From NCBI GenBank assembly GCA_022824685.1, contig JAJDZJ010000060.1, forward strand, positions 1 to 38,010: a DNA stretch of 38,010 bases. The letters are read 5' to 3'. Positions within the stretch are counted from its first letter, which is position 1, and every line of letters starts with the position of its first letter. Positions 27,292-37,820 of this stretch are shown piece after piece. The translations under genes were made by a program, and so were the position numbers. Origin of the DNA: Caldilineaceae bacterium. GTDB taxonomy: Bacteria > Chloroflexota > Anaerolineae > Caldilineales > Caldilineaceae. The notes under the pieces are model-generated. The model saw only the letters and a program-made list of their open reading frames with translations, ran no database searches and was not told the DNA's origin.

Positions 27292-28080
27292 TTAGACCAG
27301 CTCAGGCTGAAGAGCTTGTTCGCCAAATATGACTGAGAACTGTTCGCCGTTTTCGGCTTTCGTGGCTGCGTCCATGTAGCATGCGCTGAACGCCCGCCGT
27401 GGAATGTCGGTATTGTTGACTTCGGAACTGTGGGGCAGGTGGTTGTGCAGCAGGACGCTCTCGCCCGCTTCCAGCTCCAGATAGATAATTTCAGCGTCGC
27501 GAGTCAACTCTTCGGCCTGCTCCGGCGTCAGGAAGCCGGAACCGCTGGTCGGGTTGATCAAGGTGTGGTGGGCGCCGGGAACGATTTGAACGCAGCCGTT
27601 GGCGACTGTTGCCGGATCAAGGGCCGTCCAGATCGTGATCAGGGGATCGCGGTCCAGGTATCTCCAGCGGTCCTGGTGCCAGATGAGGGGGGTACCTTCG
27701 CGGGCCGGTTTGTTCATGAACATGGCGCGGTAGCAGGCGATGGTGGTCTCTTCACCGTAGACGCGTGCGCAGATGTGGCGAAAGAGCGGCTTCTGCATGA
27801 ATGCGAGGAACAGCGGGTCGTACTCCAGGTCCTGGATCTTGCGGTAGCTAAGCGTTGCGCCTTTGTGACCTTTTGTTTGAGGACCCGGTTTCCCTGTGCC
27901 CGGTTCGCGGTCCAGCTGCATTGCCATGCGGTCGTAGTCGAGCGGGGCGGTCCCCAACATGATTTCATCCATGCGTTTTTGAAGTGCGGCCAGTTCGGCG
28001 GGGGTCAGCGCCTTTCCAAGCCGCAGATAGCCCTGGGTCTGGTACTTGCGCCACAGTTCGTTTGTGAGTGTTTCGGACAT
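27292..28080 (-). CDS. Phytanoyl-CoA dioxygenase (PhyH) family protein, copy 1
   Basis: A 262-residue Fe(II)/2-oxoglutarate-dependent oxygenase. The iron facial triad is H135xD137 (WHQDRW) and H217 (NHLPHSS). R228 or R229 follows about a dozen residues later, to bind the 2-oxoglutarate carboxylate. The length and LTPAELAALQKRMD start are typical of PhyH. Members hydroxylate many small molecules, not only phytanoyl-CoA, coupled to decarboxylation of 2-oxoglutarate. The substrate is presumably that of the surrounding operon. CAGGAG precedes the ATG at good spacing. The 134 bases upstream, to the copy B propeller stop, contain a small CCGGA/TCCGG hairpin (28126-28139) and no gene. Confidence 0.9.
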   Translation of the reverse strand: MSETLTNELWRKYQTQGYLRLGKALTPAELAALQKRMDEIMLGTAPLDYDRMAMQLDREPGTGKPGPQTKGHKGATLSYRKIQDLEYDPLFLAFMQKPLFRHICARVYGEETTIACYRAMFMNKPAREGTPLIWHQDRWRYLDRDPLITIWTALDPATVANGCVQIVPGAHHTLINPTSGSGFLTPEQAEELTRDAEIIYLELEAGESVLLHNHLPHSSEVNNTDIPRRAFSACYMDAATKAENGEQFSVIFGEQALQPELV

Positions 28081-28214
28081 TCTGGGCTCCTGACAGGATC
28101 GGTCTGTTTTGGCGGCTATCCGTAACCGGAAGATTCCGGCGCGTCTGTTCTAACGATCAGGACAAGGCGCCCTGCGGCATTGTCGAAGACAGGGACCTTC
28201 AATGGTTTCGCGTG

Positions 28215-29765
28215 CTAGTCCACTCGTCCTTTCAGCCTGATGAGATACAGCGTTACGTCAGCCGGGTCGATGGTGAGCGAATAGAGTTTGGTACCCGGCG
28301 AAACGTGGAAGCGCAGCTTCACGTAGAACTCGGATTGGTGCAACCTCGGAAAGCGCCCGCTGCGGTCTTCGCCAACGCCCGGCCAGCCGGGCTTGCCGTT
28401 CCAGGAGAGCATGGCGTCAAGGGTGTCTTCGCGGATCGGATCGCAGTCGTCGACGGTACATCCGGGAATGGGCTGGCCGGTATCTTCCAGCAGCTCGTAG
28501 CGCAACTCACCGGCGCTTGCGTCGACGTTTACACGGATCTGACCGCCCCGCTCCTGGCGGAATCGATTGGTGGTAAGAATGCCGGGCGCGTAGGATTCAG
28601 CTTCGACGCTGACGTAACCGTCGGGGCGCAGGACGGCGACGCCCTTGCCGCGGCGGTTCGGTGTCGAGTAGGGTCCTTGCCAGGGCTGCGCGCTGTAACC
28701 GTTGTGGGTGAGGTTGCCGGCCATGTAGTAAAACATGAGTTGGTCATTGTGGCGGATGGGCCCGTCGGTGTAGACCATGCCATAGTCCCATGCGCCTGGC
28801 ACGCCGCGGCCGATGAACGGTTCGCGCCAGCGGGTCCAGGCAACGGTGTCGCGGCTTACAGCCAGTTGCGTTTCGACGAAACCGTCAACGCGGGCGGGCA
28901 GGGCGTTGGAGCCGCTCTCGCCGGCGCCCCAGTAGTTTTCGGCGTCGGCGATGGCGTAAGGTTCGGTGAGATCGGTCAGGAAGGTGTGGAGCATGAGGAC
29001 GTGCAGGCCGCCGTCGCTGCGGTTGAGCGGATCGAAGCCGGCGGCGTAGAATTCTGTGCCGGGCGGGTCCTGCAGGTCCTGCTCGATTACTGTACGCAGG
29101 CCGGACCAGTGCAGGAAGTCGTCGCTGTCGCGGCGGCCCAGGACGCGGGTGCGGCGGTTCGAGCCGCGCTGGGAGTAGTGGACGTAGCGGGCATCCGGAT
29201 TGATTACGCCTCCGAAGGTCTCGGCGGGGGAGCCGAAGTTGAACATCATTTTCTGATCGCTGTGGCTGCCTTCGGGATAGAGATGCCAGTCATAGCCGTC
29301 CGCGGAATAGCGAGCCAGCCAGCGCGGCTCGCCATCCTCGCCAACGCCGCTTGGCTTGTTGTCGATCTGCTTCCAGCGCCGCGCCTCCTCCTGCTCGTAA
29401 TCGTCCAGAATCATGGAGAGGTGATCGGCGGATCCGGTGGTGATGTTGTTGCGTGTTGAGCCGTCGAACTCGACCAGTCCCAGTTCCGGCCGTTCCCAGT
29501 TCAGCCCGTCGTCGGACTCCAGCGCGCAGAGGAGGTTACGGTCATCAACCCAGGCCCGGTAGTACATACGGAAGCGCTGGTTGCTCTCGTCGTAGATCAC
29601 GCGACCCGGCTGCGCGAACTGGGCGTCCCAGGGTTGATCGAAGGGGATTGAAAGCGGTTCGTCGACAGTCAATTTACGCGGCCGGTTGAGTACGCGCTTT
29701 GCGCCGGATAACGATTCGATGAAGTAGTCGTCGATGAAGAGCTGTTTTCCGGGCGAGAGTTCCAT
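28215..29765 (-). CDS. Beta-propeller glycoside-hydrolase-like protein (GH32-like fold), copy B
   Basis: A 516-residue protein with no signal peptide. It starts with KQLFIDDYFIES...LNRPRK, an opening I recall from large families of uncharacterised propeller proteins in Planctomycetes, Verrucomicrobia and sponge-associated bacteria. Blades carry RFRMYYRAW, ESDDGLNWERPELGLVEF, YSADGYDWHLYPEG and AVSRDTVAWTRW. The C-terminal beta-rich part includes ELRYELLEDTGQPIPG and KLRFHVSPGTKLYSLTI, like accessory sandwich domains. It probably acts on a carbohydrate or sugar-like compound, but no catalytic acid was assigned with certainty. It is the first gene of the five-gene minus-strand run; AGGAAC precedes the start. 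Confidence 0.75.
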   Translation of the reverse strand: MELSPGKQLFIDDYFIESLSGAKRVLNRPRKLTVDEPLSIPFDQPWDAQFAQPGRVIYDESNQRFRMYYRAWVDDRNLLCALESDDGLNWERPELGLVEFDGSTRNNITTGSADHLSMILDDYEQEEARRWKQIDNKPSGVGEDGEPRWLARYSADGYDWHLYPEGSHSDQKMMFNFGSPAETFGGVINPDARYVHYSQRGSNRRTRVLGRRDSDDFLHWSGLRTVIEQDLQDPPGTEFYAAGFDPLNRSDGGLHVLMLHTFLTDLTEPYAIADAENYWGAGESGSNALPARVDGFVETQLAVSRDTVAWTRWREPFIGRGVPGAWDYGMVYTDGPIRHNDQLMFYYMAGNLTHNGYSAQPWQGPYSTPNRRGKGVAVLRPDGYVSVEAESYAPGILTTNRFRQERGGQIRVNVDASAGELRYELLEDTGQPIPGCTVDDCDPIREDTLDAMLSWNGKPGWPGVGEDRSGRFPRLHQSEFYVKLRFHVSPGTKLYSLTIDPADVTLYLIRLKGRVD

Positions 29766-29774
29766 ACAATTTGT

Positions 29775-30982
29775 TCCTATTGTGCTCTTGAACTACGTGT
29801 CAGATGGTTGAGAAGGGAATCGATCAGGAACTTTCGGAGAATTATGTGCCTCTGCCCAGCTTTCTTGCTAGCCTTCAAACAACGAGATTCGCATCTACGT
29901 CGAAGCCTGCCGCCTTCAGTTCTCTAAGAAGCTTTAATTTCCAGCCATCAGTTTTATCAAAGCGAATGTATACTACGCCATCATAATCAGATGGTTTCTC
30001 TAGGTCTCCTTTTATCACGGCGCAAACACGCCTTCTGCCCAATTTGCCTGCGAAGAATCCAAGTTCGAAGATGACGTTTTGTCTTGCTCGAAGACGAAAT
30101 TCATTGCCACTGTTTCGTAATCTGGCTTCGTCATCCGGAGTCAATAGGACTACGGCATATCCGACTTTCTCAGCCTCTTCCTCAAATTTAGCTATGATAG
30201 TGCGCCCCCGATCCGCTTGTTCATCAAGTATTACAGGCACGAGATCTAACTCTTCAACGAATCTCGCTACTTCGTGTTTAGGTCCATCGTCTCTACCGTG
30301 AACTAAGAAGATTTTTTTTGAGTCAATCTGTCCTTCTTTTTTGGGACCGGAGGAGTGCTTTACTTGATCCCCTTCATCCCAAAAGTCTCCTATCTCCGCA
30401 ACCATCAATTTGAGCAGGTCTGAAGCCTTTGACAGACCAATAGCTAGCGCCTCTTGATTGCTTAGTCTTGGAACGCCTGACCCTCGGAGAGCCTCGGCAA
30501 ATGCGTAGTCTAAAGGATGTGGTGGAGAAAACGATATTTCGGTGAATTCCTTTACAGCAGCGTCTTCCTCCCCGTAGGCCTTAGCAATAGCCTTTTCTGT
30601 ATACCTCCGCCATCTCCTGAAGACGGGATCAGAAGTAGATAGCTTTCTCAACTGGGGTACTTTTTCGAGTGCCTTTTGCAGTCGCTCTACTGTCTTATCG
30701 ATTGGAGGCCCTGTCACTTTAATTCCTTCTTATTCAATCTTTCTGCTCATTTAGGGCAGATTTTCCAACAGGCGGAGATCGACCAACTCCATGAGTAGGC
30801 GTGCCTCTACTTGAAATCTCCAAATTGCAGTGAATTACCGCTTCCCGGTATCTTCGCTAATGGAGTTGCTTACTCCCGTAGCCTAGTGAGCTAAGCAGAA
30901 ATGCGCTCTTGCAGGTTGTGAACATATGACGTAAAGCGGACACATTTGGCCCCGACTAAGATGGCGTTTCAACTATCATCCT
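29775..30982. other. Low-GC island carrying the TIR gene
   Basis: Base composition falls to roughly 42-48% GC here, against ~60% or more on both sides, with many more A/T-ending codons. The segment separates the importer operon from the propeller operon, both on the minus strand. Bases 30718-30982 hold no gene; they include a 9-bp inverted repeat (30784-30792 with 30860-30868). No transposase, integrase, tRNA or clear terminal repeats were seen, so the transfer route is unknown. Confidence 0.7.
29875..30717 (-). CDS. TIR-like domain protein (CAP12/Pycsar-effector-type TIR)
   Basis: A 280-residue protein. Residues ~134-272 match the TIR-like nucleotide-binding domain known as PF10137. Seen are KKIFLVHGRDDGPKHEVARF, VILDEQADRGRTIIAKFEE, VVLLTPDDEAR, RQNVIFELGFFAGKLGR with the likely catalytic E218, and GVVYIRFD. 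In characterised relatives this domain cleaves NAD+ on a cyclic-nucleotide or phage signal, causing abortive infection. The N-terminal ~130 residues are helical and unrecognised, probably a sensor or oligomerisation part. No cyclase or sensor partner gene is nearby, so it is an orphan. Start GTG 30717 with AAGGA upstream (30723-30728). Codon use is AT-richer than all neighbours, suggesting horizontal acquisition. Confidence 0.88.
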   Translation of the reverse strand: MTGPPIDKTVERLQKALEKVPQLRKLSTSDPVFRRWRRYTEKAIAKAYGEEDAAVKEFTEISFSPPHPLDYAFAEALRGSGVPRLSNQEALAIGLSKASDLLKLMVAEIGDFWDEGDQVKHSSGPKKEGQIDSKKIFLVHGRDDGPKHEVARFVEELDLVPVILDEQADRGRTIIAKFEEEAEKVGYAVVLLTPDDEARLRNSGNEFRLRARQNVIFELGFFAGKLGRRRVCAVIKGDLEKPSDYDGVVYIRFDKTDGWKLKLLRELKAAGFDVDANLVV

Positions 30983-31876
30983 CTATGCCTTTATACCAGT
31001 AAGGGCAATACCTTGAATGAAGTGCTTTTGTGCCAGGAAAAAGACGATCAGTATCGGCACGATCATCATGGTTGACGCGGCCATGAGGGGGCCCCACATG
31101 GTGCGGCGCTCGAACATGAAGGCCTGGAGGCCAAGGGACAGCGTGAACTTCTCGCGCGTGTTGAGGAAGATGAGCGGGCCGGTGAAGTCATTCCAGGCAA
31201 ACATGAAGCTGAAGATGGCGACGGTTGCCAGGGCTGGCTTGGCAAGGGGCAGGATGATGGTCCACCAGATGCGGAGACGGGTTGCGCCGTCAATGATGGC
31301 GGCCTCTTCCAGCTCCATGGGGATGGTCAGGAAGAACTGACGCAGCATGAAGATGTAAAAGGGTGTGCCGAGCATGGCGGGAATGGTCAGCGGGTAGAAT
31401 GTGTCGATCCACTCCAGTTCGGCGAAGAGTAGGTAGAGCGGCACCAGCATGACGATATAGGGGATCATCATCTGGCTGACCATAACCATGAAGATGAGGT
31501 CGCGGCCGGGCGCACGTAAGCGTGAGAATGCATATGCGGCGAGCGAGCAGGTGAAGACTGCGCCGAATACGTGGGCGAGGGCGATGACCAGGGTGTTGAA
31601 AAAATAGAGGTGCATGGGGGCATAGATGAAAACGGCGGGAAAGTTGCCCCAGATGAAAGGGTCGGGCACCCAGATAGGCGGAAAGGCGAAGATCTGACGG
31701 TCGGCCTTGAGCGAAGTGCTGACCATCCAGACGAAAGGGAGCGCGAAGATTAGTGCGCCAAGGACGAGCAGGATCTGTATGCCGCCGCGCTCAAGCAGAC
31801 GACGGAGAGGCTGCCACCTGGCTCCGGGATGAATCTCGCGTTCGGATTGAGGTCCGATGGCCTGGTCGCGAATCAT
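30983..31876 (-). CDS. Carbohydrate ABC transporter permease, MalG-type
   Basis: A 297-residue CUT1-type permease with six predicted helices. The EAA loop is EEAAIIDGATRLRIWWTIILPLAKPA, the site that contacts the ATPase. The FALPFVWMVSTSLK start and the WNDFTGPLIFL block are typical of MalG/UgpE partners. It forms the membrane channel with the upstream MalF-type permease. ATG 31876 is chosen, four bases after the preceding stop, in place of a far upstream frame opening at 32008 that overlaps the other permease. No ATPase follows; the next gene is the unrelated TIR gene 265 bases away. Confidence 0.93.
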   Translation of the reverse strand: MIRDQAIGPQSEREIHPGARWQPLRRLLERGGIQILLVLGALIFALPFVWMVSTSLKADRQIFAFPPIWVPDPFIWGNFPAVFIYAPMHLYFFNTLVIALAHVFGAVFTCSLAAYAFSRLRAPGRDLIFMVMVSQMMIPYIVMLVPLYLLFAELEWIDTFYPLTIPAMLGTPFYIFMLRQFFLTIPMELEEAAIIDGATRLRIWWTIILPLAKPALATVAIFSFMFAWNDFTGPLIFLNTREKFTLSLGLQAFMFERRTMWGPLMAASTMMIVPILIVFFLAQKHFIQGIALTGIKA

Positions 31877-31880
31877 GGCT

Positions 31881-32795
31881 TTAGCTCTGCTCCGCTTCGT
31901 AGTAGACCCAACGGCTTGCCAGCTTGAACTGGACCAGCGTGAGCGCAAGCACGGCCACAAAGAGGATCCAGGCCATGCTGGCTGCGTATCCCATATCCAG
32001 AAGGACAAAGGCGCGGCGATACAGGTAGAGCATATAGAACAGCGTCGATTCGGCAGGACCGCCGCCGGTCATCACGTAGGCGGTGGTGAAGACCTGGAAG
32101 GAGGCGATTACGCTGAGGACGAGAATGAAGAAGAGCGTTGGGCTGAGCATCGGCAACGTCACGTGTTGGAAGCGCTGCCAGCGGTTGGCGCCGTCGATTT
32201 CCGCCGCTTCGTAGAGATGCTGGGGGACGCCTTGCAGGCCGGCGAGGACGATGATCATAGCGGCGCCGGAGCCCCAAAGCGCCATGAGGATGAGGGCCGG
32301 TTTGGACCAGGTGAGCGATGCGAGCCAGAGCGGGCCTTCAATCTTAACGAGTCGCAGAGTCGAATTGATGAGGCCCCACTCGGGCTGCAGAATCCAAACC
32401 CAGAGGATGGCGCCGGCGACGATGGGCACGATCGACGGCACATAGAAGAGGGTACGGTAGACGGCGATGCCGCGGGCTTTCTGGTTGAGCAGGAGGGCCA
32501 GGAGGGTGGCAACGATAACGTGCAGCGGCACGAAGACGAGCACATAATATAGCGTGTTGCCCATCGACATGCCGAAGCGCTGATCGTCTGTAAAGAGCTC
32601 GATGTAGTTCGCCAGACCGACCCAGCGGGCGGGGGTCACGATTTCGTAGTCCATGAAGCCCAACACGAAGGAAGCCGCGACCGGGCCGATTACAAAGGCA
32701 AGGAAGCCGATGCCCCAGGGGAGGAGAAAGAGATAGCAGGTCAGGGCCTCTCTGGCGGCGTTGGTGAGTCTTGGTTTGGGTTGGGCGTTGGTCAT
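31881..32795 (-). CDS. Sugar ABC transporter permease, MalF/UgpA-type
   Basis: A 304-residue CUT1 permease with six predicted helices. The family pattern is clear: CYLFLLPWGIGFLAFVIGPV at helix 1, FYVPSIVPIVAGAILWVWI, and the EAA loop LYEAAEIDGANRWQRFQHVTLPMLSP. It pairs with the MalG-type permease downstream. ATG 32795 is preferred; an in-frame TTG at 32825 would begin next to the hairpin. The hairpin at 32834-32869 lies between it and the binding-protein gene and probably lowers permease expression relative to that gene. Confidence 0.93.
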   Translation of the reverse strand: MTNAQPKPRLTNAAREALTCYLFLLPWGIGFLAFVIGPVAASFVLGFMDYEIVTPARWVGLANYIELFTDDQRFGMSMGNTLYYVLVFVPLHVIVATLLALLLNQKARGIAVYRTLFYVPSIVPIVAGAILWVWILQPEWGLINSTLRLVKIEGPLWLASLTWSKPALILMALWGSGAAMIIVLAGLQGVPQHLYEAAEIDGANRWQRFQHVTLPMLSPTLFFILVLSVIASFQVFTTAYVMTGGGPAESTLFYMLYLYRRAFVLLDMGYAASMAWILFVAVLALTLVQFKLASRWVYYEAEQS

Positions 32796-32833
32796 GGAGG
32801 CAGTCCTGACAGTTGGAGCAGACAAGCGAGAAG

Positions 32834-32869
32834 ACAGAACCGGAACGACAGGATGCCGCCCGGTTCTGT
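32834..32869 (-). promoter_or_regulatory. Strong intercistronic RNA hairpin between binding-protein and permease genes
   Basis: ACAGAACCGG (32834-32843) and CCGGTTCTGT (32860-32869) form a perfect 10-bp stem with a 16-base loop. On the minus strand it lies 16 bases after the binding-protein stop and 38 bases before the permease start. No long T run follows, so partial termination or 3'-end protection of the binding-protein mRNA is likely, as in other importer operons where the binding protein is made in excess. Confidence 0.7.
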
Positions 32870-32885
32870 TAATTCTCTAATGCGC

Positions 32886-34358
32886 TTAGGAGGATTCAAG
32901 ATTCTCCCAAGCGGCGTCGAGCGCCTTTTGGACGTCGGCGTGGGAGGCGTCGAGGGCCTCTTGCGGCGTCTGCTTCTTGGTGAGGGCGGACTCCCAGGCG
33001 TTCTTGAAACCGATCCAGAGTTCGGCGGCGGCGAGTCCGGCAATCTGGCCGCAGCCCACGGAGAAGGTCTCTGAATCGAGGTATCTCTGCATCATGATCT
33101 TCTGGCGTTCGGGTAGGACGGAGTAGTACTCGTCCAACATGAACTGCATGGCCGGCTGGTAGACGGGCGGTGTGGGGGCGAAGATCGGTTCGCCGGGCAG
33201 CTGCTGACGCGCCCATTCGGCCTTTTCGAGCTCAAGGCCGACGGTCCCTGCGGCGCGCACGTATTTCTCGCTGATCACCCACTTCATGAATTCCCAACCC
33301 TGTTCGACAAGCTCGGTATTGGGGTCGATCACGAAAGTCCAGCCGCAGGACCAGTTAACCTGGGCGCCTTCATTTGCGGCCGAGACAGGCATGAGGCCGG
33401 TGCCGTCGTAGTCGAGGTCGGGGAACTTGGCATAGCGGCCGATCATCCAGTTGCCGTAGGAGCACATGGAGACCTGGCCCTGGGCGAAGGGATCGACGGG
33501 CTGACCGGCGAAGCCTTCCATGAAGGAGGAGGCCGCGGCGTTGCCGCCGCCAAACTCGTCGATCATGTGGACGCACCACTCGAGGGCTTCGACCCATGGA
33601 TCGGTGTTAATGAGGTTGGTGCGGCCGTCCTCGGACTGGCTGACTCCGCCGTTTTCCATGGCGTAGATAAGCAGCTGATCGGACAGGCCGGGCGGGAAGT
33701 GGGGGAGGAAGCCGTAGCGAACGATGCGGTCTCCTTCCATCTTGTTCAACTGGGGCGCCATTTCCATGATGTCGTCCCAGGTCTCGGGGCCAACGTCTGG
33801 ATCGAGGCCGGCTTCTTCAAAGTGGGTCCTGTTCCAGAAGAAGTAGCGGGTGCCGGCGGTATGTGGCAGCCCATAGAGTGTGCCCTGCCAGGTGAGGTCG
33901 GCGATGGGGCCGGCCATGAAGTTGCCTTTGTCGACATTGTCCCGCTCAAGGAGGTCTTCGATGGGCCTGTAGAGATTGCGGGAGGCAAACTGGCGGAAGG
34001 TGTGACGGTTCTGGTAGGAGACGTCGGGGCCCTTGCCGGCAGCCACGGCGGTTACGTATTTGGGCGTACCGTAGACTGCTTCGCCGAGGTCACCGAGCGA
34101 CACGGTGATGTCGGGGTGCTGCTCCTGGAATACCTGGAGAACGCCTTCCGTGGTGGGATTGATGCGCCACCAAATCTGGATGTCAACGGGTTCCTGTGAC
34201 GCCGCCATTCCTTCGTCGCCGGCGGCTTCAGGGCCGGCCGGTACACAGGCGCTGGCTACCAGCGCGAGTCCGGCAACTGCGGCAGAGTTCTTCAGGAGGC
34301 TTCTCCGGCTGATGCCCTCCTGGACGTCGGTCTTTGCTGCGGAATTGACTCTCGTCAT
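32886..34358 (-). CDS. Extracellular solute-binding lipoprotein of a CUT1-type importer
   Basis: A 490-residue family-1 solute-binding protein. The N-terminus is a Tat-type lipoprotein signal: twin Arg in SRRSLLKN (R18, R19), a hydrophobic core, and lipobox VASAC (C38). The mature protein has the usual IQIWWRIN start, followed by VLQVFQEQHPDITV, and Trp/aromatic-rich segments expected for sugar binding. It captures a solute at the outer face of the membrane and delivers it to the two permeases downstream. The ligand is unknown; family membership suggests a saccharide or polyol, but the neighbourhood hints at an amidated compound. AAGGAG lies ~11 bases before the ATG. First gene of the importer operon. 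Confidence 0.93.
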   Translation of the reverse strand: MTRVNSAAKTDVQEGISRRSLLKNSAAVAGLALVASACVPAGPEAAGDEGMAASQEPVDIQIWWRINPTTEGVLQVFQEQHPDITVSLGDLGEAVYGTPKYVTAVAAGKGPDVSYQNRHTFRQFASRNLYRPIEDLLERDNVDKGNFMAGPIADLTWQGTLYGLPHTAGTRYFFWNRTHFEEAGLDPDVGPETWDDIMEMAPQLNKMEGDRIVRYGFLPHFPPGLSDQLLIYAMENGGVSQSEDGRTNLINTDPWVEALEWCVHMIDEFGGGNAAASSFMEGFAGQPVDPFAQGQVSMCSYGNWMIGRYAKFPDLDYDGTGLMPVSAANEGAQVNWSCGWTFVIDPNTELVEQGWEFMKWVISEKYVRAAGTVGLELEKAEWARQQLPGEPIFAPTPPVYQPAMQFMLDEYYSVLPERQKIMMQRYLDSETFSVGCGQIAGLAAAELWIGFKNAWESALTKKQTPQEALDASHADVQKALDAAWENLESS

Positions 34359-34836
34359 AGTTCTTGCTTCTCCTTTTCGATGCAGATTGCATGAAACTAC
34401 TGCTTAATTCTGGGAATTCCTACGCAGTTCGATCAATAGTCCCTCCTGAGCAATATTGGGCGCCTGGGAAGACGTTCGGCATGTCTCCGGCTGGATCCTT
34501 TGATGTGAGTCGCCGCTGGGTGCAATACCCGAGAATTTGGGAAAGTCGAACTCAAATGGCGTGGGACAGCTACAACAACCTCCTGACAATTAGACTTTGG
34601 ACTGCTAAGAGGAGAGTAATCGGTGGTCGAGGTCGCTGCGGACCATGGCTGCGTGTGATTCTATCGGATCACGCGAGGAATGGCAACCTCTGAGCCTGCT
34701 TCCCTCTGCCCATTACCTGCCGGGAGTGGTATAATGGTCGCTGACCGCTAGCCATGTCATGTTCGACCTCGCCGCGCCGATTCAGGGCAGGAACTCTTGC
34801 TGATTCGACCCCAAGCGAAGACGTGAGGAAAGAAAT
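34359..34836. other. Divergent intergenic region, 478 bases, no convincing gene
   Basis: The region separates the importer operon (minus) from the PhyH-M20-dehydrogenase operon (plus). It contains an extended -10 at 34727-34735 and the binding-protein leader. A 109-codon open frame (34364-34693, plus) has no ribosome site, no recognised motif and starts inside the leader; it is judged non-coding. Composition is lower in GC (about 50%) than the flanks. It is the natural site for shared regulation of both operons, but no operator was identified. Confidence 0.6.
34727..34735 (+). promoter_or_regulatory. Extended -10 promoter of the PhyH-M20-dehydrogenase operon
   Basis: TGGTATAAT with a perfect TATAAT at 34730-34735; the -35 is poor (TGCCCA at 34707-34712). 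Predicted start ~34742, giving a leader of ~95 bases before the ATG at 34837. Confidence 0.6.
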
Positions 34837-35649
34837 ATGCCGGCCACTCCTACGTTAGAAGAGCAACTCCTACATTTGAGGCTGGACGGCTGGTGTGTTG
34901 TGAAGAACGTTATCCCCGAGGAGGAGGTAAGGGCTGTACGCGAGAGTGTTGCGGAGGCCACGCTCCGGCACCAGCGGCCTGATGCGCCGGCGAATATCGG
35001 ACATCGGACCGGGTTGATCAACTACGATCAGTCCTTTGCTCCTTATCTTGTAACGCCTCACTTTATTGAACTGATCAAAGCGACGCTTGGCCAGAATGTG
35101 CGCGTTTCATTCACTTCGGCCATGATCAATTACCCAGGCAACGCACGCGGCGGGCTTCACGCCGATTGGCCATTCAACCAGCGCAATGCAGGGCATATTC
35201 CCGCGCCCTACCCCGATGTCGTCGCCCATCTGACGACGCTGTGGATGCTTTCTCCATTTACGGTTGAGAATGGCGCCACCATTATCGTGCCCGGCAGCCA
35301 CAGGATGGAGACGAACCCAAGCGCAGAGGGCTGCAGCCACGACGAAGAAGCTCCTTATCCGACCGAAATCCAGGCTGCCGGCGACGCGGGCAGCGTACTG
35401 GTGATGGATAGCCGCATGTGGCACGCGGCCGGCGCGAACAGGTCCGACTCAGCGCGTGTCGCGATGGCCATTCGCTTCGCGCCGTGGTGGCTGAATCTAA
35501 ATGGGCTTAGACCCGGCTCCGGTGAGCGGGCAAGGCAGATGGCGGCGACCGGACTTACAGAGAATGAGGTCGAATCTGTAAAGAAGGATGTGTATGCGGG
35601 TTTAGCGCCGGCAGTCCAACCCCTATTCGAACACTGGGTGGAGCGCTAA
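34837..35649 (+). CDS. Phytanoyl-CoA dioxygenase (PhyH) family protein, copy 2
   Basis: A 270-residue Fe(II)/2-oxoglutarate oxygenase. Iron ligands are H108xD110 (LHADWPF) and H196 (MWHAAG); R207 fits as the 2-oxoglutarate anchor. VPGSHRMETNP before the second His is a PhyH hallmark. It is clearly paralogous to, but diverged from, the copy at 27292. It probably hydroxylates the substrate that the next two enzymes process. GAGGAAAG (34825-34832) precedes the ATG. The stop TAA abuts the ATG of the M20 gene with no gap, so the two are translationally linked. Confidence 0.9.
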   Translation: MPATPTLEEQLLHLRLDGWCVVKNVIPEEEVRAVRESVAEATLRHQRPDAPANIGHRTGLINYDQSFAPYLVTPHFIELIKATLGQNVRVSFTSAMINYPGNARGGLHADWPFNQRNAGHIPAPYPDVVAHLTTLWMLSPFTVENGATIIVPGSHRMETNPSAEGCSHDEEAPYPTEIQAAGDAGSVLVMDSRMWHAAGANRSDSARVAMAIRFAPWWLNLNGLRPGSGERARQMAATGLTENEVESVKKDVYAGLAPAVQPLFEHWVER

Positions 35650-36828
35650 ATGGACACCGATCTCCTCGCGACATCCCTTGCCGGGCAAGTTGAGCCGGAG
35701 CGAATCAAGCAGCTTACACTGGATATGGTGCGCATCCCGAGCCCGCCCGGGGAAGAGCGCGCCGTTTCGGAATATTATGCGGATGCCTTGCGCGAGGCGG
35801 GCCTGGAAGTGGAGATGGACGATGAGTATCCCGACAGCCCCAGCGTCGTGGCGTGGTTGCGGGGCTGCGGACGGAGCCCTACGCTTCAGCTGGACGGCCA
35901 TACCGATACGGTAGATTTGCCGGGGCCGGAGCCGCGATTTGAGCATGGATTTATCCACGGGCGGGGATCGGAGGATATGAAGGCATCGCTGGCCGCGATG
36001 GCAGAGGCTGCGCGCGTCATACGCGGGGCGGGAGTCCAGCTTGGCGGTGACCTGCTTCTGACTGCGCACGGCCGCCACGAGAGCGCGACAAATGAGACGT
36101 TGATATCGCTGATCGAAAAGGGCGTCCATGGGGACACGGTGATCGTAACTGAGCTGGGCGGCAAAGACCTGCCGATTACAGGTATGGGCCTTGCATTTTG
36201 GGAGCTGAGCATTGCGGGGGACGATGAGGGCATTCACGAGACGGTGGCCGAGGCGGGAGCTCCCCACGCGGTGATGGCAGGGCTCAGGGCGGTGCAGCTG
36301 CTGCAGGAGAAGGCGGCTGAACTCGACGATATACGGCATCCTTATCTGGGCGCGGAATCCATTTTCATTGGCAGGTTTCAGGGCGGCGACTATTTTAACC
36401 GGATGCCGGCCGGTTGTGTCATTGCGGGGACGCGCCGGTTTGGTCCTGGTTGCAGCTTGGACGAGATTCGCGAGGAGTTTGAGGGGCTGGCGGCCCGTGT
36501 GCAGGAGGAGAGCGGCGCAGAAGTCGAGGTCTGGCTGGATGGGATCGAGGGATACAGGGTCGACGAAAAGGAGCGCCTGGCAAAGGTGTTGCGGCGCGGC
36601 CATCAGCAAGTTACGGGCGCCGAGCTGCCCCTGGCCGGGATCCGAGCTGCGGCGAATGTTCCCCACTTTGTGCATCTGGCGCATGTCCCTGCGCTTTACT
36701 ATGGCGCGAGCTATCTGACCGCGCATTCGGACCACGAGCGGGTCGAGCTGGCACAGGTCGTGCGCGCTACGAAGGTATACATTCATGCAATCCTCGCCTT
36801 TCTTGGCGTCGCGGAGCAGTCCTTATGA
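35650..36828 (+). CDS. M20 family metallopeptidase/deacylase (ArgE/DapE-like)
   Basis: A 392-residue M20 hydrolase. Dizinc ligands are recognisable: H84 and D86 (DGHTDTV), bridging D109 (GRGSEDMK), E168 (VTELGG) and H359 (AHSDHERV). The position that is normally Glu-Glu (general base plus ligand) reads His143-Glu144 in TAHGRHESA, an unusual substitution of the catalytic base. The dimerisation domain lies between (~185-300). M20 enzymes remove acyl or aminoacyl groups from amide bonds (ArgE, DapE, carboxypeptidase G2). Given its partners it may cleave an N-acyl or amide bond after hydroxylation by PhyH. Its stop overlaps the dehydrogenase ATG (ATGA). Confidence 0.88.
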   Translation: MDTDLLATSLAGQVEPERIKQLTLDMVRIPSPPGEERAVSEYYADALREAGLEVEMDDEYPDSPSVVAWLRGCGRSPTLQLDGHTDTVDLPGPEPRFEHGFIHGRGSEDMKASLAAMAEAARVIRGAGVQLGGDLLLTAHGRHESATNETLISLIEKGVHGDTVIVTELGGKDLPITGMGLAFWELSIAGDDEGIHETVAEAGAPHAVMAGLRAVQLLQEKAAELDDIRHPYLGAESIFIGRFQGGDYFNRMPAGCVIAGTRRFGPGCSLDEIREEFEGLAARVQEESGAEVEVWLDGIEGYRVDEKERLAKVLRRGHQQVTGAELPLAGIRAAANVPHFVHLAHVPALYYGASYLTAHSDHERVELAQVVRATKVYIHAILAFLGVAEQSL

Positions 36829-37820
36829 GCAGATCCCGAACAGTCGTTGTCACATCCAACATCTTTCCCGGCCTGGAGACTGAAAAGGAGGTCCTGGCGC
36901 CGTACAAAGTCGAACTGGTCAAGCGCCCGTGTCAGACTCAAGAACAGCTGGCCGAGGCGGGCAAGGACGCGGTTGCCCTGCTCGTGGGCAATGTGCACAT
37001 CAATGCCGAAGTGCTTTCGCATTTTCCTCACTGCCTGGCAATCGTTAAACCGTCAGTCGGTGTGGACAACATCGACATTGACGCGGCAACGGCGGCGGGT
37101 GTGTGTGTTGCCAACGTGCCGGATTACGGCACTGACGAGGTGGCGACCCACGCGATGGCGCTGCTGCTGAACGCAATCCGGTATGTCGACGCCGAGGCAG
37201 CAGCAGTTCGAGGCGGCCGCTGGCAGCCCAAGCCGCCATACCCGATCCAGCGCAGTGCGGGGCGCACGCTGGGCATCATCGGATTCGGGCGCATCGGCCA
37301 ATCTGTCGCGCGGAAGGCTTCCGGTTTTGACTGGCGTTTGCTGGCCTGGGACCCCTACCTGGATGATGAGGAGATACGACAGGGAGGCGCCGAACCTGCA
37401 GAGTTCGAAACGCTGCTGGGGCAGTCGGACTTTGTCACTTTGCACTTGCCGTTGACGGAAGAGACGCAGGGAATGATCGATGCAAGCGCGCTGGCGAAGA
37501 TGAAGCCGGGTGCCTCTCTTGTGAATACGGCGCGCGGGGGCGTAGTCGACTCCGCCGCGTTGCTGCAGGCGGTCGATTCAGGTCAGATCGCGGGGGCGGC
37601 TGTAGACGTGGTTGACGAGGAGCCGCCGCCGCCAGACCATCCGCTCTACCGCTCGGACCGCATCCTTGTGACCGCACACGTGGCGTGGTACTCGGAGCAG
37701 GCTTTCCGTGACGTGCGTGTGAAGGCGGTGCAGGAGGTGGCGCGCGTGCTGGGGGGTCAGTTGCCGTTAAACCTGCTCAACCCGGAAGTAAAACCTCGCT
37801 TCACGGTGCGCGGCGCCTAG
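36825..37820 (+). CDS. NAD-dependent D-2-hydroxyacid dehydrogenase (PGDH-like)
   Basis: A 331-residue D-isomer-specific 2-hydroxyacid dehydrogenase. The Rossmann motif is GFGRIGQS (G153xG155xxG158). D176 after the second strand (AWDPY) indicates NAD preference. The catalytic triad is R237 (NTARGG), E266 (DVVDEEPP) and H285 (TAHVAWYSE). It interconverts a 2-hydroxy acid and a 2-oxo acid in the cytosol; similarity is to phosphoglycerate and hydroxypyruvate types, with no ACT/regulatory domain. The ATG overlaps the M20 stop by four bases. A hydroxyacid made by the PhyH oxygenase and freed by the M20 enzyme is a plausible substrate. A weak GAACTG/CAGTTC stem (37836-37860) follows the stop, then the terminal repeat. 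Confidence 0.93.
   Translation: MSRSRTVVVTSNIFPGLETEKEVLAPYKVELVKRPCQTQEQLAEAGKDAVALLVGNVHINAEVLSHFPHCLAIVKPSVGVDNIDIDAATAAGVCVANVPDYGTDEVATHAMALLLNAIRYVDAEAAAVRGGRWQPKPPYPIQRSAGRTLGIIGFGRIGQSVARKASGFDWRLLAWDPYLDDEEIRQGGAEPAEFETLLGQSDFVTLHLPLTEETQGMIDASALAKMKPGASLVNTARGGVVDSAALLQAVDSGQIAGAAVDVVDEEPPPPDHPLYRSDRILVTAHVAWYSEQAFRDVRVKAVQEVARVLGGQLPLNLLNPEVKPRFTVRGA

Follow-up and report, generated by a model that had tools for sequence, protein, structure and literature searches.

A PhyH, M20 hydrolase and 2-hydroxyacid dehydrogenase gene trio at the front of a larger gene cluster in a genus of Caldilineaceae

The 38,010-nucleotide contig JAJDZJ010000060.1 (C115) of a draft Caldilineaceae genome (assembly GCA_022824685.1; 5.23 Mb), analysed over its entire length and referred to as the window in this study, carries close to its end three tightly joined genes. 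These encode a PhyH-family Fe(II)/2-oxoglutarate (2OG) oxygenase, an M20-family metallohydrolase and a D-isomer-specific 2-hydroxyacid dehydrogenase (Table 1). As judged from gene order and sequence comparison, this trio is the front part of a larger, co-directional and undescribed gene cluster, which is cut by the contig end 190 bases past the trio. The trio is present in the same order in 15 of the 17 draft genomes (Caldilineaceae) that make up our genus set, and its M20 protein belongs to a clade that carries a histidine where the family has its catalytic glutamate.

Results

Orthologues of the PhyH and dehydrogenase genes were each found in 16 of the 17 genus genomes and those of the M20 gene in 15. 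In all 15 genomes with both genes, the gap between PhyH and M20 is exactly 0 bases. The gap between M20 and the dehydrogenase gene is −4 bases in nine of these genomes, between −1 and +5 in five, and 639 bases in genome G291. For each trio gene, dN/dS lies between 0.06 and 0.17, indicating that the three genes are under purifying selection, and the deepest pairs approach saturation at synonymous sites. Two genomes lack the complete trio. In G256, M20 has been lost from between intact PhyH and dehydrogenase genes, leaving 143 bases (L072:13261-13403) without recognisable M20 sequence. In G300, which is 81% complete, the PhyH and dehydrogenase orthologues were not found, and M20 was not searched for there. 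Gene order is widely conserved across the genus well beyond the trio, so that the mere presence of the three genes side by side tells little and their exact junctions tell more. Similarly, as the genome has 105 PhyH-family matches, a single PhyH gene beside a given gene is unremarkable, and it is the conservation of the exact junction that counts.

The PhyH protein scores above its Pfam cut-off and carries the HxD...H facial triad (H108-x-D110 and H196) together with R207, all of which fit the expected metal and 2OG ligands in sequence and PDB alignments; it is predicted to be a 2OG-dependent hydroxylase. The dehydrogenase has both the NAD and the catalytic domains, with R237, E266 and H285 fitting the catalytic triad in PDB alignments, and its PDB relatives are PGDH, glyoxylate reductase and CtBP. 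It scored below the curated NCBIfam equivalog cut-offs for PGDH (251 versus 454 bits) and glyoxylate reductase (217 versus 455 bits), and none of the three trio enzymes reached the cut-off of a named NCBIfam equivalog. The original prediction for this region had described three coupled genes of these families, a TAA stop codon abutting the ATG of the second gene, an ATGA overlap at the second junction and a divergent gap of 478 bases in front of PhyH; open reading frames (ORFs) and Pfam searches confirmed all of these features and their coordinates. When a regulatory palindrome was sought in the 478-base gap, no strong inverted repeat was found, there being one weak 9-base pair.

Table 1. Positions of the trio, its junctions and adjacent features in the window
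Feature	Position	Strand	Basis
CUT1-type importer (solute-binding protein and two permeases), adjacent but not obligatory	30983..34358	-	Pfam SBP_bac_1, BPD_transp_1
Divergent intergenic region, 478 bases, from the start of the solute-binding protein gene (34358) to PhyH	34359..34836		sequence
PhyH-family Fe(II)/2OG oxygenase, 270 aa	34837..35649	+	PF05721, 83 bits (cut-off 22)
PhyH stop TAA (35647-35649) abutting M20 ATG (35650)	35647..35652	+	gap 0 in 15/15 genomes
M20-family metallohydrolase, 392 aa, of the His-at-general-base clade	35650..36828	+	PF01546, 64 bits (cut-off 24.6)
Codon CAC, His143, in place of the M20 catalytic Glu	36076..36078	+	alignment
ATGA, M20 stop TGA (36826-36828) overlapping dehydrogenase ATG (36825)	36825..36828	+	sequence
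NAD-type D-isomer-specific 2-hydroxyacid dehydrogenase, 331 aa, GFGRIG motif	36825..37820	+	PF02826, 204 bits; PF00389, 81 bits
23-base end overlap with contig C12	37988..38010		exact blastn; last 23 bases of C12 identical

The cluster continues beyond the contig end. Contig C12 of the same genome shares the 23-base end overlap, and an intergenic sequence of genome G196 maps to both contig ends, supporting the junction. C12 holds the remainder of the cluster, namely genes for a DUF3830 protein, a class III aminotransferase, an EutA-like protein, a GNAT protein, an FAH-family hydrolase, a second EutA-like protein and a second DUF3830 protein. Outside the window, ORFs were called by a simple script, and family names there were only partly checked by Pfam/NCBIfam. 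A co-directional DUF3830 gene lies downstream in all 16 genomes carrying the cluster. The examined sequence ends after DUF3830 in G301, G303 and G298, and hence the later genes were counted among 13 genomes: a class III aminotransferase gene is present in all 13, a gene for an EutA/arylmalonate-decarboxylase-like protein in 12 (in G183 the second, more distant copy is the only one), and an FAH-family hydrolase gene in 12 (all but G256). Among the extra genes, GNAT is frequent, Gfo/Idh and VOC are patchy (Gfo/Idh was not detected in several genus genomes), and a second EutA-like gene and a second DUF3830 gene stand at the end of the cluster in many genomes. The genes flanking the trio (importers, Gfo, VOC and GNAT) turn over between genomes.

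A module of DUF3830, aminotransferase and EutA-like genes recurs in G538 (L198), a genome from another class of the phylum. At that locus (L198:1-10880), genes for DUF3830, a GABA-transaminase-like protein, two EutA-like proteins, an amidase, a succinate-semialdehyde-type dehydrogenase and a partial DoeA-like protein were observed together. Plasmid records with DUF3830 had unrelated neighbourhoods or no annotation, and no paper on DUF3830 was found in the open-licence literature.

The M20 protein shares with M20 amidohydrolases such as DapE, ArgE and the aminoacylases the fold (AlphaFold model with pLDDT 90; best PDB fold DapE 7uoi, TM 0.86), the metal ligands and the lid-domain histidine (H196). 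The metal ligands H84, D109, E144, E168 and H359 fall in the same alignment columns as those of 77 canonical M20 proteins. However, the residue preceding the Glu metal ligand, which is the Glu general base in canonical members, is His143. Among 104 aligned M20 proteins, this position is occupied by His in 27 of 27 clade members and by Glu in 77 of 77 others, and in a tree of 64 of these proteins a single branch with support of 100/99 separates those with His from the rest. The clade spans Chloroflexota, one Acidobacteriota record and one Bacillota record. Apart from the degenerate L021, its members retain the metal ligands and the lid His, and they differ from the other M20 amidohydrolases also in the clade-typical residues E197, F239, N250, G260 and R263. 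On sequence and model, the trio's M20 protein is thus an M20-fold hydrolase of a divergent clade and not a standard M20 enzyme; His143 may act as its base. The alignment of the catalytic column with that of 5-nitroanthranilate aminohydrolase is uncertain, and hence no claim is made on this comparison.

Gene neighbourhoods were inspected at a few dozen loci. The closest M20 relative in the phylum outside the class (G521) is followed, all in one direction, by genes for an amidohydrolase, a class III aminotransferase, a D-serine-dehydratase-like protein, SBP5, DppB and DppC. Class III aminotransferase genes lie near His-clade M20 genes in L043 and L044, and a similar ORF lies near M20 in L046. 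An M20 paralogue in the genome itself (contig C235) is divergent from a Dpp-type importer, and in G291 (L167:7501-12931) a different PhyH gene and a CUT1-type importer come directly after a His-clade M20 paralogue, in the same direction. Other His-clade relatives stand beside genes for mannonate dehydratase-like, SDR and aminotransferase proteins, and an M20 relative in Paenibacillus rhizovicinus stands beside genes for a CUT1 importer, gluconolactonase, Gfo/Idh, GNAT, dihydroxy-acid dehydratase, FAH and glycerate kinase. Class III aminotransferases and importers therefore recur near M20 relatives, and so do sugar-acid genes, for which reason a sugar-acid alternative is retained below.

Two types of importers are found next to the trio. 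In 11 of 16 genomes, the gene for the CUT1 solute-binding protein (SBP) and PhyH are divergently oriented and 0.5 to about 5 kb apart, and the protein is 92-99% conserved there. In G291 the SBP gene is 6.8 kb off, behind a five-gene unit, and in G264 it is on a different contig. It was not found in genomes G183, G206 and G302, all of which have the trio, and therefore the trio does not require this importer. In G206, G302 and G291, a Dpp/Opp-type importer (SBP5, DppB and DppC) lies directly upstream of PhyH in the same direction.

On the other side of the CUT1 importer, the window contains a gene for a CAP12/Pycsar-type TIR domain protein (PF10137, 132 bits; 29875-30717), a glycosidase-like gene (28215-29765) and a second PhyH gene, PhyH2 (27292-28080, minus strand), which is among the 105 matches. 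Large proteins that by eye resemble glycosidase-type beta-propellers, and that have no Pfam match, are encoded repeatedly near or beside PhyH paralogues in the genus, as in the window, at L038:15683-17104 and at L072:4268-5980.

Discussion

We consider the chances about even that the trio forms the promoter-proximal section of an operon by which an imported amino compound with an amide linkage is broken down. This compound might be peptide-, opine- or N-acyl-amino-acid-like; both the substrate and the order of reactions are suggested by the protein families and the neighbouring genes. The proposal draws on the gene junctions, the purifying selection, the downstream continuation with the C12 overlap and the Dpp/Opp-type importer upstream in three genomes. 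It draws further on the neighbourhoods of M20 relatives, the DUF3830 module in L198, the kept metal ligands and lid His and, by analogy, the CsiD-LhgO-GabT precedent (PMC6265302). In such an operon, an amide-bonded solute would be imported, by the peptide-type importer in the three genomes that have it, and M20 would hydrolyse the amide with His143 as the base. The class III aminotransferase would take the amino group off the released amine or amino acid, PhyH would add a hydroxyl group to a carbon, and the NAD dehydrogenase would interconvert the resulting D-2-hydroxyacid and 2-oxoacid, a hydroxylation followed by an oxidation that would be akin to that by CsiD and LhgO in glutarate catabolism (PMC6265302). 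EutA has been proposed to invert the hydroxyl group in hydroxyectoine (PMC5924519), and so an EutA-like protein encoded beside a hydroxylase could, speculatively, adjust stereochemistry. The FAH-family enzyme would finish the carbon skeleton.

Hydroxylation at the carbon bearing the amide nitrogen gives a carbinolamide, which collapses to a 2-oxoacid and not to a 2-hydroxyacid. The C-alpha hydroxylation with release of a 2-hydroxyacid put forward in the original prediction is therefore partly unlikely. That prediction had also read the three enzymes as one self-contained pathway and linked them to the CUT1 importer. While the coupled enzyme genes proved to be conserved, neither a complete pathway nor the importer link was borne out, the former because genes for DUF3830, class III aminotransferase, EutA-like and FAH proteins follow the trio, the latter because the SBP is missing from three trio-bearing genomes and a Dpp/Opp-type importer is present in some. 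The expectation that the trio would be kept in related genomes held within the genus; outside it, none was found. In line with the statement that no named pathway has this trio, a search of the open-licence literature gave no relevant paper.

Several observations weigh against catabolism of an amide-linked compound. As G256 has PhyH and dehydrogenase genes without M20, the latter is not indispensable, and since gene order is widely kept in the genus, the linkage within it is weaker evidence than it appears. Outside the genus, no trio turned up, either around the closest M20 relatives or beside the PhyH orthologues (55-57%) of G313 and G315. The replacement of the general base in M20 could also mean a different reaction. 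Moreover, no orthologue of the Dpp-type SBP was found in the other 14 genomes, whose paralogues reach near 34% at best.

The synteny and the loss of M20 in G256, together with the 105 PhyH matches that make PhyH neighbours common, would agree with mere background co-location, in which the general synteny of a PhyH-rich genus keeps functionally unrelated genes side by side. We regard this as improbable, as the 0-base junction between PhyH and M20 is retained in 15 genomes despite near-saturated synonymous sites between the deepest pairs, and the flanking genes turn over meanwhile. It is somewhat less improbable, but still quite unlikely, that the trio and the divergent CUT1 importer make up a complete unit with the importer bringing in the substrate. 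The importer's divergent position beside PhyH in most genomes and the strong conservation of its SBP would suit such a unit. However, three genomes with the trio do without the SBP, the trio is followed by several more co-directional enzyme genes, and the importer fits better into a unit with the glycosidase-like and PhyH2 genes, with which it is co-directional (27292-34358, minus strand). As an obligate partner of the trio, the CUT1 importer was rejected.

Sugar-acid catabolism, in which M20 would act on an (N-acyl)amino sugar acid or a related acid and FAH, Gfo/Idh and the dehydrogenase would complete a non-phosphorylative route, is an unlikely alternative that deserves more weight. Its appeal comes from the mannonate dehydratase-like, SDR and aminotransferase genes beside His-clade relatives, the sugar-acid-type operon in Paenibacillus rhizovicinus and the expanded carbohydrate repertoire of sponge Caldilineae (PMC6306507). 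However, the relatives concerned are only 32-38% identical and sit on other branches of the clade, the cluster shows no dehydratase, gluconolactonase or kinase, and the patchy detection of Gfo/Idh does not suit the route either. The combination of EutA-like proteins, a class III aminotransferase, a deacylase-type hydrolase and PhyH recalls the eut/doe clusters, and a cluster for the utilisation of an ectoine-type compatible solute was also considered. This is very improbable: the EutA model gave 93 bits (G256 orthologue) and 111 bits (the genome's own second copy) against a cut-off of 318, the best DoeA/EutD match in the genome reached 167 against 613 bits and lies outside the cluster, PhyH had no match to ectoine hydroxylase (TIGR02408) at E 0.001, and no EutB, EutC or EutE was identified in the cluster. 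Ectoine catabolism was rejected on the below-cut-off EutA and DoeA/EutD scores and the lack of a TIGR02408 match.

Returning to catabolism of an amide-linked amino compound, two described systems offer partial parallels. In the csiD-lhgO-gabDTP operon (PMC6265302), the 2-hydroxyacid formed by a 2OG oxygenase is oxidised by a dehydrogenase, and genes for a class III aminotransferase and a transporter stand alongside; the present cluster is predicted to share these features. The oxygenase here is a PhyH protein and not CsiD (PF08943), as Pfam gave PhyH plus a sub-threshold 2OG-FeII_Oxy_5 match and no PF08943. The dehydrogenase is predicted to be a soluble NAD-dependent D-2-hydroxyacid enzyme unlike LhgO, an M20 hydrolase is present, and no semialdehyde dehydrogenase was seen in the cluster. 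The ehuABCD-eutABCDE/doe clusters (PMC5924519) also combine an importer, amide-type hydrolysis or deacylation, a class III aminotransferase and an EutA-family protein. However, the genome studied here has no DoeA/EutD above the cut-off, its EutA-like proteins are far below theirs, M20 stands in place of EutE, and PhyH, DUF3830 and FAH are added. It is possible, though rather doubtful, that the His-for-Glu M20 clade is a mechanistically distinct hydrolase/lyase family working in an undescribed oxidative route, in which hydroxylation by PhyH would precede amide cleavage and a sponge- or symbiont-derived amide would be consumed.

The genus includes sponge symbionts. Genome G282, which belongs to it, matches the record of Caldilineaceae bacterium bin5 (MPML01000051.1), a bin from the sponge Aplysina aerophoba (PMC5649159), and this relative suggests a sponge origin for the present genome as well. 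Sponge Poribacteria (PMC3909097), another sponge-associated lineage, are likewise known to have many PhyH genes, although here one PhyH gene is fixed in a defined operon with partners. In a genome with about 100 PhyH genes, a PhyH locked into such an operon would provide a tractable entry to PhyH substrates, its partners being the hydrolase, the dehydrogenase and the aminotransferase, joined in three relatives by a peptide-type importer. The His-clade M20 proteins of Chloroflexota, Acidobacteriota and Bacillota would offer a direct test of whether His can replace the catalytic Glu in a large hydrolase family.

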